This document shows, piece after piece, positions 5,053 through 61,423 of a stretch of 64,000 nt of DNA. The DNA is taken from positions 5,243,501 through 5,307,500 of the forward strand of contig NZ_CP014263.1 in assembly GCF_001988955.1 (NCBI RefSeq). The letters are read 5' to 3'. Within the stretch, counting starts at the first letter, position 1, and each line of letters begins with the position of its first letter. Below the pieces are notes generated by a model. That model was given only the letters and a program-made list of their open reading frames with translations. It ran no database searches and was not told the origin of the DNA. The translations under genes were made by a program, and so were the position numbers. This DNA is from Spirosoma montaniterrae. Its GTDB lineage: Bacteria > Bacteroidota > Bacteroidia > Cytophagales > Spirosomataceae.

Positions 5053-5129
5053 GTTGAATGATTGAGTGGTTAAATGATTGAGTGTAGCTAAAGACCGCAT
5101 TCAATCATTTAACCACTCAATCATTCAAC
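5053..5129. repeat. Long inverted repeat between rfbB and rfbA
   Basis: Arms 5053-5084 and 5098-5129 (32 nt each) are complementary at 31 of 32 positions with a 13-nt loop. Each arm is built from repeated words such as TGATTGAGTG and GGTTAAATGA. The element starts 4 nt after the rfbB stop and ends 13 nt before the rfbA start, so an rfbB-rfbA transcript would carry a very strong hairpin just ahead of the rfbA start. There is no T-tract after it, so it is not a standard terminator. Confidence 0.9.
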
Positions 5130-5142
5130 CACTCAATACACT

Positions 5143-6003
5143 ATGAAAGGTATCATTCTTGCCGGCGGCTCCGGCACGCGGCTCCACCCGCTCACACTGG
5201 CCGTTAGTAAACAGCTTATGCCCGTTTACGACAAACCCATGATTTATTACCCGCTCTCGATTTTGATGCTGGCGGGCATTCGCGAAATTCTTATCATTTC
5301 GACCCCGCATGATCTGCCGCATTTTGAAAAGTTGCTCGGCGATGGCAAGCGGCTGGGATGTGAGTTCACCTACGCCGTTCAGCCCAGCCCCGACGGTCTG
5401 GCGCAGGCGTTTATCATTGGTGAAGAATTTATCGGCGACGATAAAGTGGCATTAGTGCTGGGCGATAATATTTTCTATGGCTCCGGTTTGTCGAAGTTGT
5501 TGCAGGCCAACAACGACCCTGATGGGGGCGTGGTGTATGCTTATCAGGTTCACGATCCCGAACGCTACGGCGTTGTAGAATTCGACAAAGATTTCAACGT
5601 ATTGTCGATTGAAGAAAAGCCCGAAAAGCCCAAATCGCATTATGCTGTGCCGGGGCTGTATTTCTATGACAATGACGTGGTCGACATTGCCAAAAACATC
5701 AAGCCCTCGCCCCGTGGCGAACTGGAAATTACAGACGTAAATCGGGTGTATCTGGAGCGTGGAAAGCTAAAAGTAGGCGTTCTCGACCGGGGTACTGCCT
5801 GGCTCGATACCGGCACATTTGAGTCGCTGATGCAGGCGGGGCAGTTCGTACACGTCATTGAAGAGCGGCAGGGGCTGAAAATTGGTTGCCCCGAAGAAAT
5901 TGCCTACCGAATGAAATTCATCGATGCCGAACAATTGGCCAACATTGCCAAACCTTTGGTGAAAAGCGGCTACGGGCAGTATCTATTAAATCTGCTTAAA
6001 TAA
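5143..6003 (+). CDS. rfbA: Glucose-1-phosphate thymidylyltransferase
   Basis: RfbA/RmlA joins glucose-1-phosphate and dTTP to give dTDP-glucose, the substrate of the upstream RfbB. The 286-residue length is typical. The nucleotide-binding signature LAGGSGTRLHP is at residues 6-16, followed by SKQLMPVYDKPMIYYPL; GDNIFYG and EEKPEKPKS further on are family hallmarks, as is the WLDTGT segment. It ends the galE-rfbB-rfbA run and is followed by an intrinsic terminator at 6033-6065. A strong dyad separates it from rfbB, which could uncouple its expression from the first two genes. Confidence 0.96.
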   Translation: MKGIILAGGSGTRLHPLTLAVSKQLMPVYDKPMIYYPLSILMLAGIREILIISTPHDLPHFEKLLGDGKRLGCEFTYAVQPSPDGLAQAFIIGEEFIGDDKVALVLGDNIFYGSGLSKLLQANNDPDGGVVYAYQVHDPERYGVVEFDKDFNVLSIEEKPEKPKSHYAVPGLYFYDNDVVDIAKNIKPSPRGELEITDVNRVYLERGKLKVGVLDRGTAWLDTGTFESLMQAGQFVHVIEERQGLKIGCPEEIAYRMKFIDAEQLANIAKPLVKSGYGQYLLNLLK

Positions 6004-6032
6004 TTTCCTACCAACAGGTTTAACACACAACA

Positions 6033-6065
6033 AAAAACGCCGGAGCATTTGTCCCGGCGTTTTTA
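6033..6065 (+). terminator. Intrinsic terminator after rfbA
   Basis: AACGCCGG and CCGGCGTT form a stem around a short loop and are followed by TTTTTATT. It closes the sugar-nucleotide gene group. Confidence 0.85.
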
Positions 6066-6411
6066 TTAACCTAACCTATGAGATGAGAAAGTAAATTGCC
6101 TGAGCAGGAAAGTCGTTGCTGGCGTTAGCAGCCACAGCACAAAGGTAGCAGACTGGTAACGGGTGTAAGAGCGCATAATTCCCGGTTTTTGGTTGCTATT
6201 GAAAACAGGCAAAAGTCCCCACTTTACTACGTAGTTCTACGTATTAGAAGGCTTAATCGTTACCCTAATTAATTGATAATCAACATTTCCCTGCGCGTAT
6301 AGAAAAGTGGTCTTTTGACCTCACACAATAATCGCTATAGCTTTGTCGTGCTTTCCGGTGATATCCATTTCCACAGCCTTAGTTAGAGTTTATTCCTAAA
6401 CCTTTTTTCTT
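6066..6411. other. Non-coding gap with promoter
   Basis: About 345 bp without a credible gene. The sequence is unique, moderately AT-rich toward the right, and includes the short palindrome CTACGTAGTTCTACGTA at 6228-6244. The only clear functional element is the promoter at 6315-6345 for the gene at 6412. I see no RNA gene fold. Confidence 0.5.
6315..6345 (+). promoter_or_regulatory. Bacteroidota-type promoter
   Basis: TTG at 6315-6317 is followed after 20 nt by TAGCTTTG at 6338-6345, a complete match to the TTG-N17-23-TAnnTTTG consensus. It lies about 66 nt upstream of the gene at 6412 and is one of the best promoter matches in the window. Confidence 0.65.
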
Positions 6412-59358: not shown

Positions 59359-60393
59359 ATGAAACGAGTGCTCACCATTGCTGGCGTATCGCTGGCGTTT
59401 CTGGCGGTTGGCTACGTGGCCGGGCCGCGCCCGTCTGTGCCGCTCGACAGCGGAAAAATTCCTGCCGTGACTACCGATCTTAATCAAATTGACGCAGAAA
59501 TAGCCCGCTACGAAGCTGGTTTTAAACTCAAACCCGACAATCACGCCCGCATCGTATGGGCCGACAGTATCCGTAAACAAAAAACGCCATATAGCATCGT
59601 GTATGTTCACGGCTATACGGCAAGCTGGGGCGAAGGCTATCCGGTAAATATCAATCTGGCAGAACAATTTGGCAGTAATTTGTATCTGGCCCGCAACGCC
59701 GGACACGGTCTCGATTCGCCCGATGCGATGATCGACCTCACACCCGCGTCCTACTTCGAATCGGCAGAACGGGCGTTGGCAATTGGTAAAGCAATTGGCG
59801 AAAAAGTAATTGTTGTCGGTACGTCGATGGGCGGGATGCTGACGCTTTATCTGGCATCGAAACACCCTGAAATTGCCGGTATTGTGCTGTATTCGCCCTG
59901 TATTGCCGTTGCCGACGCCAAAGCGAAACTCATCACGCTACCCTGGGGGCAGCAGATTCTCGACAACGTGTATCCCGATAAACACGTTCGCAACGAAAAA
60001 ACCACGCCCGAACGCGCCAAATATTGGTACGAACAGTACCATACCAATGGCCTGATTACCCTGCAAACCGTGTTGGATCATTACGCCACGCCCGAAACCT
60101 TCACGAAGGTGAAACAGCCTGCATTTTTGGCGTACTACTATAAAGACGAAGAACATCAGGATCCCACGGTCTCAATAAAAGCCATGCTGAATATGTACGA
60201 CCAACTTGGCACCCCCGCTAATCAGAAGCGCAAAGAAGCCTTCCCCGAAGCCGGTGCCCACGTTATTGCTTCAGAATACACAACGAAGGAATGGCCCGCT
60301 GTACAGGCCGCTACAGCGAAGTTTCTTCAGGAAGTTGTGAAAGTACCAACTGCCACCAGCACCGCAACTGTGGCCTTCAACCCAAAAAAATAA
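59359..60393 (+). CDS. Exported alpha/beta hydrolase
   Basis: The 344-residue product has a signal or anchor peptide (RVLTIAGVSLAFLAVGYVAG) and an alpha/beta-hydrolase core: VYVHGYTASWGEG, then ARNAGHG, the nucleophile elbow VVGTSMGGMLTLYLA, LYSPCIAV and a likely catalytic His in AGAHVIAS near the C-terminus. Substrate is unknown. It is followed by a dyad and fabI on the same strand. Confidence 0.8.
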   Translation: MKRVLTIAGVSLAFLAVGYVAGPRPSVPLDSGKIPAVTTDLNQIDAEIARYEAGFKLKPDNHARIVWADSIRKQKTPYSIVYVHGYTASWGEGYPVNINLAEQFGSNLYLARNAGHGLDSPDAMIDLTPASYFESAERALAIGKAIGEKVIVVGTSMGGMLTLYLASKHPEIAGIVLYSPCIAVADAKAKLITLPWGQQILDNVYPDKHVRNEKTTPERAKYWYEQYHTNGLITLQTVLDHYATPETFTKVKQPAFLAYYYKDEEHQDPTVSIKAMLNMYDQLGTPANQKRKEAFPEAGAHVIASEYTTKEWPAVQAATAKFLQEVVKVPTATSTATVAFNPKK

Positions 60394-60403
60394 GCTAATT
60401 TTG

Positions 60404-60483
60404 TAGTGATGAGTGATGAGCGATAAGTGATGAGTTGTTAGCGCAACACTCACTCATCGCTCATCGCTCATCGCTCATCACTA
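60404..60483. repeat. Inverted repeat between hydrolase and fabI
   Basis: Arms 60404-60435 and 60452-60483 (32 nt) are complementary at 29 positions. The arms are made of GATGAGT/GATGAGC/GATAAGT words and the loop holds a small GTTG...CAAC dyad. The right arm ends 6 nt before the fabI ATG with the string TCACTAAAA, just as at 31495-31505. Confidence 0.9.
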
Positions 60484-60489
60484 AAATTT

Positions 60490-61314
60490 ATGCCTTACGG
60501 ACTACTGAACGGGAAGCGCGGAATTATTTCTGGCGCACTGAATGACCAATCGATTGCCTGGAAAATCGCGCTGAAAGCGAAAGAAGAAGGGGCAACGTTC
60601 ACGCTCACCAATGCCCCCATTGCCATGCGTATGGGAGCCATTCGGGATTTGGCCGAACAAACCGGAGCGGAAATTATTCCGGCAGATGCTACCTCAACCG
60701 AAGACCTCGACAAACTCTTCACGCAATCGCAGGAGGTGCTGGGCGGGAAAGTCGATTTTGTGTTGCATAGCATCGGTATGAGTCCGAACATCCGCAAAGG
60801 CAAAGCCTACACTGACCTGAACTACGAATGGCTGAAGCAAACGATTGATATTTCGGCAGTATCGTTCCATAAAATGATGCAGTCGGCCTACAAACTCGAC
60901 GCCATCAGCGAATGGGGTTCGGTGGTTGCCCTTACCTATATGGCCGCGCAACGGACGTTCCCATTTTATACCGATATGGCCGACGCCAAGGCCCTGCTCG
61001 AATCTATTGCCCGCAGCTTTGGCTATCGCTACGGTCGCTACCGGCACGTGCGCGTCAATACTGTTTCGCAGTCGCCCACGCCTACCACGGCGGGCAGCGG
61101 CATAGGTGGTTTCGACCGCTTTTTTGATTTTGCTGATAAAACCGCCCCACTCGGCAACGCCACTGCCGACCAGTGTGCCGACTACTGCATTACCCTCTTC
61201 TCCGACCTGACCCGCATGGTTACGATGCAAAACCTGTTCCACGACGGCGGTTTCAGCATGACCGGCATTTCGGAGGAGGTAATGGAATTGATAAACCGTC
61301 CGAACCAGGATTAG
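60490..61314 (+). CDS. fabI: Enoyl-[acyl-carrier-protein] reductase
   Basis: FabI carries out the last step of each fatty-acid elongation round with NADH. The 274-residue product has the FabI-type nucleotide region GKRGIISGALNDQSIAWKIALKAKEEGA, FVLHSIGMSPN, the catalytic Y-x6-K in FYTDMADAKALLES and the substrate loop after VSQSPTPTTAGSGI. The C-terminus ends RPNQD; the last three residues and stop are encoded by the AACCAGGATTAG repeat arm at 61302. Upstream lies a strong dyad. Confidence 0.93.
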   Translation: MPYGLLNGKRGIISGALNDQSIAWKIALKAKEEGATFTLTNAPIAMRMGAIRDLAEQTGAEIIPADATSTEDLDKLFTQSQEVLGGKVDFVLHSIGMSPNIRKGKAYTDLNYEWLKQTIDISAVSFHKMMQSAYKLDAISEWGSVVALTYMAAQRTFPFYTDMADAKALLESIARSFGYRYGRYRHVRVNTVSQSPTPTTAGSGIGGFDRFFDFADKTAPLGNATADQCADYCITLFSDLTRMVTMQNLFHDGGFSMTGISEEVMELINRPNQD

Positions 61315-61423
61315 CCAGGATTTGCACGATTAAACAGGACTCTACGCTGCGCTTGTTTGACAATCCAGTAAGCGCAGCGCATAAATCCTGTTTAATCGTA
61401 CAAATCCTGGCTAATCCTGGTTC
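61302..61423. repeat. Inverted repeat, AACCAGGATTAG family, between fabI and sbcC
   Basis: Left arm from 61302 (GAACCAGGATTAGCCAGGATTTG...CTACGCTGCGCTTG) pairs with the right arm ending at 61423 over about 54 nt, with a few mismatches and a short loop. It is closely related to the dyad at 15184-15471 but lacks the long inner part. It contains the stop of fabI on the left and the stop of sbcC on the right, so both convergent genes end inside it. Confidence 0.92.

Follow-up and report, generated by a model that had tools for sequence, protein, structure and literature searches.

The 64-kb window analyzed here, that is, the whole stretch from position 5243501 to 5307500 of the one-contig 5.80 Mb genome of Spirosoma montaniterrae, contains nine long inverted repeats at the ends of and between genes. 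We call them word dyads after the short words of which their arms are made. All nine were described as near-perfect in a preliminary description of this DNA, and an inverted-repeat scan of the window recovers each of them in place, with 14/14 to 57/60 positions paired. Between congeneric species the two arms of such dyads change in concert, and the words of one family differ in dialect from genome to genome; these observations, and the placement of the dyads at gene ends, are weighed below against several explanations. The nine dyads are as follows.

5053..5129, word dyad of the TTGAATGA vocabulary, between co-directional genes 3993-5048 and 5143-6003; arms 29/29 paired, loop 19
11386..11449, word dyad of the GTTGTAGGG vocabulary, between co-directional genes 10796-11377 (LemA) and 11471-11905 (TPM domain); core 14/14 paired
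15182..15473, word dyad of CCAGGATTAGCC words (V4 family), filling the convergent gap 15187-15457; 57/60 paired, loop 172
29028..29127, word dyad of the CACGGAT vocabulary, 5′ of gene 29138-30448 (plug domain of the type IX secretion system, T9SS); 22/22 paired
31411..31499, word dyad of GATGAGT heptamers, between co-directional genes 30560-31402 and 31509-32486; 34/34 paired
37167..37252, word dyad of the CACAGAG vocabulary, between minus-strand genes 36686-37144 and 37261-38970 (glycogen synthase); 36/38 paired
55743..55827, word dyad of the CACAGAG vocabulary, between minus-strand genes 54438-55727 and 55846-56883; 31/33 paired
60404..60483, word dyad of GATGAGT heptamers, between genes 59359-60393 and 60490-61314 (PF13561, enoyl-ACP-reductase-like); 29/32 paired
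61294..61431, word dyad of the V4 family, spanning the convergent gap 61315-61410; 43/46 paired

Seven of the nine occupy co-directional gaps and two (15182 and 61294) convergent gaps; the scan of the whole window found no inverted repeat in its divergent gaps. The contact with genes is close. Only 4 nt separate the 5053 dyad from the last base of the upstream gene, the ends of both flanking genes fall within the arms of the 15182 dyad, and the left arm of the 61294 dyad contains the TAG stop codon of gene 60490-61314. In the 31411 dyad the order of the heptamers is mirrored between the arms. Predicted folds of all nine are stable on both strands (-24.4 to -147.6 kcal/mol). Chance is ruled out as their origin by two controls: 264 kb of first-order Markov sequence contained one inverted repeat with a score (defined below) of at least 14 and none of at least 18, and TGATGAGTGATRAGTGATRAGT, with up to two mismatches allowed, has 253 matches in the genome vs 3 for the reversed pattern. 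The shared vocabularies that had been noticed in the window thus recur genome-wide.

Genome-wide placement

Placement was assessed in a genome sample of 1.664 Mb, made up of the window and 80 scattered 20-kb stretches. The dyad score was the number of matches minus twice the number of mismatches, with a cut-off of at least 18, and genes were called by a home-made hexamer caller rather than taken from standard annotation. The sample contains 228 dyads, of which 54 are in convergent gaps, 127 in co-directional gaps, 14 in divergent gaps, 23 within genes by call and 10 in other noncoding sequence; counted by gap, 54/131 convergent, 126/677 co-directional and 14/208 divergent gaps hold a dyad. In co-directional gaps the median distance from stop codon to dyad is 3 nt (quartiles -3 and 8), 114 of the 127 dyads lie closer to that stop than to the following start, and 44 overlap the called gene end. 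In 34 of the 54 convergent cases both edges fall between -25 and +15 nt of the respective stop codons; eight of these 54 dyads reach equally far into the two genes, with a difference of at most 1 nt. The dyads are strongly biased to the 3′ sides of genes and are not confined there: the restriction to 3′ sides that had been proposed holds within the window and fails in the genome sample. A 3′-side gap bias of stem-loops is on record from 40 prokaryotes (PMC1590033) and from Escherichia coli (PMC6060812), and perfect inverted repeats of many bacterial phyla show it too (PMC13155455). Placement alone is therefore not new.

This placement, with a start at the stop codon, a like bias in so many other prokaryotes and stable predicted folds, favors an explanation in which the dyads are functional RNA hairpins, either non-canonical terminators or 3′ stabilizers, whose pairing is kept by selection acting on single point mutations. 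We regard it as possible but rather unlikely, and the scarcity of U-tails is one of several findings that speak against it. Intrinsic (Rho-independent) terminators do resemble the dyads in that the hairpin directly follows the stop codon and convergent gaps are favored. However, among 235 reads of dyads along the gene strand, only 13 have at least five T in the 8 nt 3′ of the stem, while 25 have at least five A, and 11 reads show six or more T in an 8-nt segment between -6 and +8. The remaining 222 reads lack the U-tract that directly follows the stem in an intrinsic terminator; most dyads are therefore not canonical terminators, in agreement with the preliminary remark that most lack a T-tract. 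Long arms, loops that are mostly longer and, in some word-dyad families, A-rich sequence 3′ of the hairpin are further differences. A single common terminator type is ruled out for most dyads by the U-tail counts.

The position of the 60404 dyad, with a conserved promoter-like box on one side and the start of the enoyl-ACP-reductase-like gene on the other, also sits poorly with a selected RNA 3′ end.

60396..60403, + strand, TAnnTTTG box directly 5′ of the 60404 dyad, present in 30/30 loci read

TAnnTTTG is a promoter motif of Bacteroidota. Across the genus, 33 strong matches were found, of which 30 were read as loci (our own included); the box is kept in all 30, while the dyad words differ or the dyad is missing. 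Leaders of the gene fold at z < -3 in 13/30 loci (again with our own), with words that differ among them, and in the two best-matching relatives (G009 and G020) the leader has no dyad. Since the box is present in 30/30 loci, the dyad probably lies in the 5′ leader of the gene. In co-directional gaps without dyads the motif favors one strand (118 vs 20 of 551). On the gene strand it occurs in 13/126 co-directional gaps with dyads vs 118/551 without, counts that rule out a promoter function of the dyads themselves; of the 15 motif matches in gaps with dyads, 11 follow the dyad, 3 precede it and 1 falls inside it.

Co-evolution of the two arms

Changes in the arms were followed in syntenic blocks, at mostly 91-95% identity, of three congeneric species pairs. 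Genic dyads (one in the forward comparison, three with the genomes swapped) and dyads with unmapped flanks were left out, and 25 stem pairs opposite alignment gaps are additional to those counted. The forward comparison comprises 31 noncoding dyads and 702 stem pairs, of which 608 are unchanged, 61 differ on one side only, 28 differ on both sides with pairing intact, and 5 fall in none of these classes. The 28 concerted, pair-preserving changes compare with 1.9 expected under independence and are spread so that 16 of the 31 dyads have at least one; with the genomes swapped, 745 pairs include 65 one-sided and 29 concerted changes, again vs 1.9 expected. The compensatory changes that had been suggested as a check are thus present between three close species pairs, and the arms do not simply drift independently, although many changes remain one-sided. 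Stem sites diverge (8.8%) like other noncoding sequence (8.7%), with loops at 11.1%; it is therefore not the letters that are conserved, but the match between arms.

If selection acted via wobble pairs, G-U pairs should be in surplus, as should transitions among the concerted changes; under template switching, changes should be clustered and carry the raw mutation spectrum. Neither surplus was seen. Mismatches in co-directional dyads, read along the transcript, comprise 53 G-U and 60 A-C, and the concerted changes comprise 12 transitions and 16 transversions, vs 45 and 16 among one-sided changes (p=0.008, but p=0.11 with the genomes swapped); their share of transversions also exceeds that of the noncoding background (915/2495; p=0.03). 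The arms change in multi-base steps, with 5 adjacent concerted changes vs 1.27 after permutation (P=0.004) and, with the genomes swapped, 6 vs 1.54 (P=0.002). The lack of a G-U excess, the adjacent changes and the 16/28 transversions all count against RNA hairpins kept by point mutation. As there is no G-U preference and changes of the G-U-route type do not predominate among the concerted ones, DNA-level copying is the more probable cause of arm matching and selection the less probable one. The preliminary description had attributed the likeness of the arms to selection or gene conversion; the likeness is borne out by their co-change and mirrored word order, and the choice leans to copying of DNA. 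Template switching is a described route to matched hairpins (PMC8794818), and transitions there make up 61% of instantaneous compensatory changes in rRNA vs 43% here. The quasipalindrome correction treated in that paper likewise involves multi-base concerted changes that make arms match; it differs in being known for RNA genes and mutational hotspots, whereas hundreds of dispersed intergenic dyads, and a step between loci, would be involved here.

The order of words tells the same story within our own genome. Across 32 arm sets of heptamers, with arms paired by proximity alone and duplicate sets collapsed, the mirroring score is 90 vs 42.4 after shuffling (sd 8.2), a value reached in 0/5000 shuffles. 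Copies of the CCAGGATT type (V4) mirror their variants as well, with 46 vs 27.4 shuffled (sd 4.5; top of 5000 shuffles 48), in a test anchored on the outer word in which 24 copies could be paired and 31 left and 26 right arms stayed without a partner. A first pairing of V4 arms without that anchor gave no signal (9 mirrored vs 6.9 shuffled) because of misregister of the tandem words. The arrays of the two arms may differ in length (6 vs 19 units in L420), a sign of slippage, and one pair of genomes differs in the presence of a dyad altogether (G005, 20902).

Vocabularies and dialects

Fourteen vocabularies were labeled in the genome sample, two of them with a single dyad, under definitions made after part of the data had been seen; 43/228 dyads fit none. 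The polarity of the arms is nearly fixed in our genome: V1 23/23, V2 20/21, V3 16/17, V4 25/27, V5 12/12, V6 8/8, V7 9/9 and V8 26/26, with the palindromic V9 tied in 18/21. The V4 label is impure, as 5 of its 27 dyads are V9-like and the one at window position 35061 is another palindrome, and both polarity exceptions are among these. In 296 Bacteroidota genomes, CACAGAG dyads have the normal arrangement in 24 and are inside-out in 16 (backwards controls in 4 and 1 of 296, respectively), and the inside-out form is absent from our own; a universal polarity is thereby ruled out, and polarity is therefore a property of the genome. Loops are shared too, with 181 dyad pairs (82/228 dyads) having a loop 12-mer in common vs 6 for random segments and 0 for shuffled loops. 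The 111 loop-sharing pairs of the same vocabulary include 45 labeled V4, 30 V9, 15 V8, 12 V2, 5 V7 and 1 V1; dispersed copying is therefore best shown for some families.

The GATGAxT family permits a comparison across the genus. Arrays of three words of the types GATRAGT and GATRAAT were counted in 36 genomes, overlapping arrays being counted more than once. Our genome has 99 of the first type and 0 of the second, while G003 (0/54), G006 (0/44) and G008 (0/66) have only the second; G034 (26/42), G016 (10/21), G020 (5/19), G009 (2/28) and G011 (1/30) are mixed, 15/36 genomes have neither, and backwards controls gave 0. All 26 GATRAGT matches of G034 lie in two runs (contigs C23 and C67), one at a contig start, which may reflect assembly breaks at such repeats. 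The words of our own sample are GATGAGT (117), GATGAAC (42), GATAAGT (17), GATGAGC (12), GATGAAT (6), GATAAAC (5) and GATAAAT (1). Unlinked copies thus share one dialect here and another in some congeners, which suggests that words spread or are rewritten between loci. The dialect pattern itself is directly observed; its mechanism we infer.

To compare equivalent places, 22 stretches of our genome were set against 20 each of G008 and G006, all chosen for their arrays. Flanks are homologous in 16 stretch pairs, 12 of which include a locus of our own, and at 5/22 of our loci a dyad of the other dialect occupies the same gap between orthologous genes; the remaining own pairs involve different gaps or doubtful orthology.

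Same-gap dialect pairs: L405/L453; L408/L443; L410/L452 and L426; L411/L433; L412/L431

The pattern fits in-place replacement of words across unlinked loci. In one of the pairs (L411, 2304-2846, and L433, 2238-2728), facing word arrays stand about 450 nt apart at the equivalent place in two species, and those of L433 flank a small called open reading frame (2292-2648), as though the gene were the hairpin loop. The longest GATGAGT dyad read (L302, 2512-2651) has 61/63 pairs and a loop of 14 in a convergent gap.

Two further explanations address the dialects directly. It may be that there is active word-writing in many bacteria and archaea, in which the genome enforces one dialect on unlinked arms, in place, from a common template. 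Candidate templates are a different locus, single-stranded DNA and, by way of a reverse transcriptase, RNA, and the position and form of the hairpin would be inherited while its letters are replaced. We think this unlikely. Alternatively, the words could be binding sites of a sequence-specific DNA- or RNA-binding protein, a change in whose specificity drags all copies to a new dialect. A single dialect at unlinked loci and in both arms of our genome, and its nearly fixed polarity (complete in V1, V8 and V5), are what such a protein would produce. However, one genome contains fourteen labeled vocabularies, G034 and G016 carry both dialects, and CACAGAG dyads occur inside-out in other Bacteroidota, and we consider a binding protein quite improbable.

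Distribution across taxa

The suspicion that similar strings occur in unrelated bacteria proved well founded, as CACAGAG and CACGGAT vocabularies are found across many phyla and in archaea. The CACAGAG dyad pattern matches at least 118 stretches, of which the 80 listed were examined. Among the matches listed are Acidobacteria, Chloroflexi, Alpha-, Beta-, Gamma- and Deltaproteobacteria, Verrucomicrobia, Nitrospirae, Sorangium, Gemmatimonadetes, Planctomycetes, Spirochaetes, Bacteroidetes, Poribacteria, Aminicenantes and archaea including Methanosarcinales. Within Bacteroidota the pattern is patchy (24/296 genomes; backwards control 4). Placement of 88 CACAGAG dyads across phyla shows a weak bias under crude gene calls, with 13 in 51 convergent, 39 in 212 co-directional and 8 in 60 divergent gaps, 7 genic and 21 unplaced. 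The CACGGAT pattern was found in 7/50 genomes tested, including our own and one archaeon with 44 matches, and its backwards control gave 14 matches in one other genome. CACAGAG dyads also occur in 95 IMG/VR stretches (L308-L387), some with several copies per few kb; this is a database of viral contigs in which host sequence is possible.

Comparison with known repeat elements

The REP/BIME palindromes with their RAYT transposases (PMC3733652) are alike in being dispersed intergenic palindromes at gene ends with hairpin RNA, and two of our vocabularies, V11 and V9, look like members. Our genome has three Y1_Tnp (PF01797) matches; one of these genes (L301, 3871-4677) has near-identical AGTAACGCGGGTGGAAACCCGC palindromes (V11) on either side in a REPtron-like arrangement, on account of which V11 looks like a REP/RAYT family, and other short palindromes are also near the Y1 genes. 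V9 starts with GTAG, which along with CGTC is a tag of such elements. These features, and dispersed families that share loops, would suit an explanation in which RAYT (Y1) transposases mobilize all the dyads as REP/BIME-like palindromes. The word dyads themselves are unlike such elements: they are longer (arms to 63 nt), consist of tandem words, vary within the genome, do not occur within about 900 nt of the three Y1 genes, and bear GTAG at only 12/224 ends (V1-V7). Nor do transposases and dyads go together. G006, a draft of 80 contigs, has no PF01797 match despite 44 GATGAxT dyad-pattern matches and as many GATRAAT arrays, while G030 and G032 are rich in PF01797 (13 and 14 matches) and have only 2 and 5 dyad matches; G004 and G005 also have 0 PF01797 matches, and their dyads, of other vocabularies, still evolve in concert. 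Movement of the word dyads by RAYT is accordingly very improbable.

STRR are a heptamer-repeat kind comparable to the TAACTGA arrays discussed next, and our genome has tandem 7-nt units between genes in the form of GATGAGT arrays at 22 places; the unit lengths of the other vocabularies differ. The TAACTGA heptamer arrays of Beggiatoaceae, cyanobacteria and Bacteroidetes (PMC4679880) are likewise intergenic and patchy across distant phyla. However, these arrays are of the direct-repeat type and, in the Maribeggiatoa genome, are found chiefly immediately 5′ of start codons (PMC4679880), whereas the word-dyad arrays face each other as hairpins, lie mostly 3′ of stop codons and vary in dialect between congeners.

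Other long intergenic inverted repeats with internal repeats include ERIC, NEMIS and RUP and, reportedly, a Porphyromonas miniature inverted-repeat transposable element (MITE) with a minisatellite. These differ in having one consensus per family, and MITEs characteristically carry target duplications. No publication describing or naming facing word arrays was found among the papers listed, judged by titles and abstract openings, in keeping with the preliminary description, which knew no named element.

Proposed origin of the word dyads

We give about even credence to a composite origin, in which the dyads are several dispersed noncoding hairpin repeat families of short words, shaped by copying between arms, spread of words and tolerance of the slot 3′ of genes. 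In a first step, one arm would serve as the DNA template for the other through quasipalindrome template switching in replication, and slippage would add or remove words; the co-change of the arms is an observation, and the sequence comparisons lend fair support to template copying as its cause. In a second step, words would spread or be rewritten between unlinked loci. Finally, dyads may persist right after stop codons since these slots tolerate a hairpin. By analogy with what is thought of REP elements, the RNA hairpin might be of slight benefit there in setting or shielding the 3′ ends of transcripts, rather than as a U-tract terminator.

Several observations weigh against this composite origin. 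The one-sided changes (61) exceed the concerted ones (28), and 18 of the 28 come from one species pair. The excess of transversions weakens when the genomes are swapped (14 transitions and 15 transversions vs 43 and 22 one-sided, p=0.11; background p=0.12), and the loops of the same dyads, with 69 transitions and 75 transversions (75/144), resemble the concerted changes (p=0.68; swapped 1.0); the loop spectrum fits copying of raw mutations, yet the excess over other noncoding sequence is then not special. One-sided transversions are rarer in stems than in loops (p=0.0007). Their paucity could reflect faster correction or selection, and in the latter case it favors functional RNA hairpins. The 60404 dyad is probably part of a 5′ leader at least as much as of a 3′ end. 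Independent insertion into favored gaps is a rival account of the five same-gap cases, some congeners carry both dialects, and no enzyme or donor was found for the step between loci.

If the composite origin is true, a large class of bacterial intergenic hairpins that would ordinarily pass for terminators owes its form more to copying of DNA than to selection on RNA, and covariation in them is therefore not proof of RNA function. The dialects of congeners offer a direct way to test homogenization of short sequences across unlinked bacterial sites, and vocabularies common to archaea and many bacterial phyla raise the question of how they spread.

Other hairpins of the window

The scan found six further noncoding dyads in the window (1739, 35061, 12766, 24798, 48255 and 53041), the last four of which are short, terminator-like hairpins, and two weak inverted repeats within genes (10748 and 51460). 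Those with distinctive features are as follows.

1739..1920, REP-like palindromes (GTAGAGACGCAA..., V9), loop holding 43-nt tandem units, from the inverted-repeat scan
35061..35164, REP-like palindrome (TTCGGGATGTAAATCCCGAA), apparently within remnants of word dyads, from sequence reading
12766..12832, + strand, terminator-like hairpin outside the word families, right arm ending in T7
24798..24850, compact terminator-like hairpin in a convergent gap, from the inverted-repeat scan

By their sequence, the palindromes at 1739 and 35061 look like the REP/RAYT kind, so that the statement that no named element was known does not extend to them. In the region 35015-35225, the TTCGGGATGTAAATCCCGAA palindrome is apparently inserted among CACGGAG and AATCCTGGTT word-dyad remnants, which suggests that hairpins are insertion targets. 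SbcC/RAD50-like proteins are of a kind known to attack DNA hairpins, and the minus-strand gene 61411-63999, beside the dyad at 61294-61431, matches an SbcC/RAD50-like Walker B motif (PF13558).

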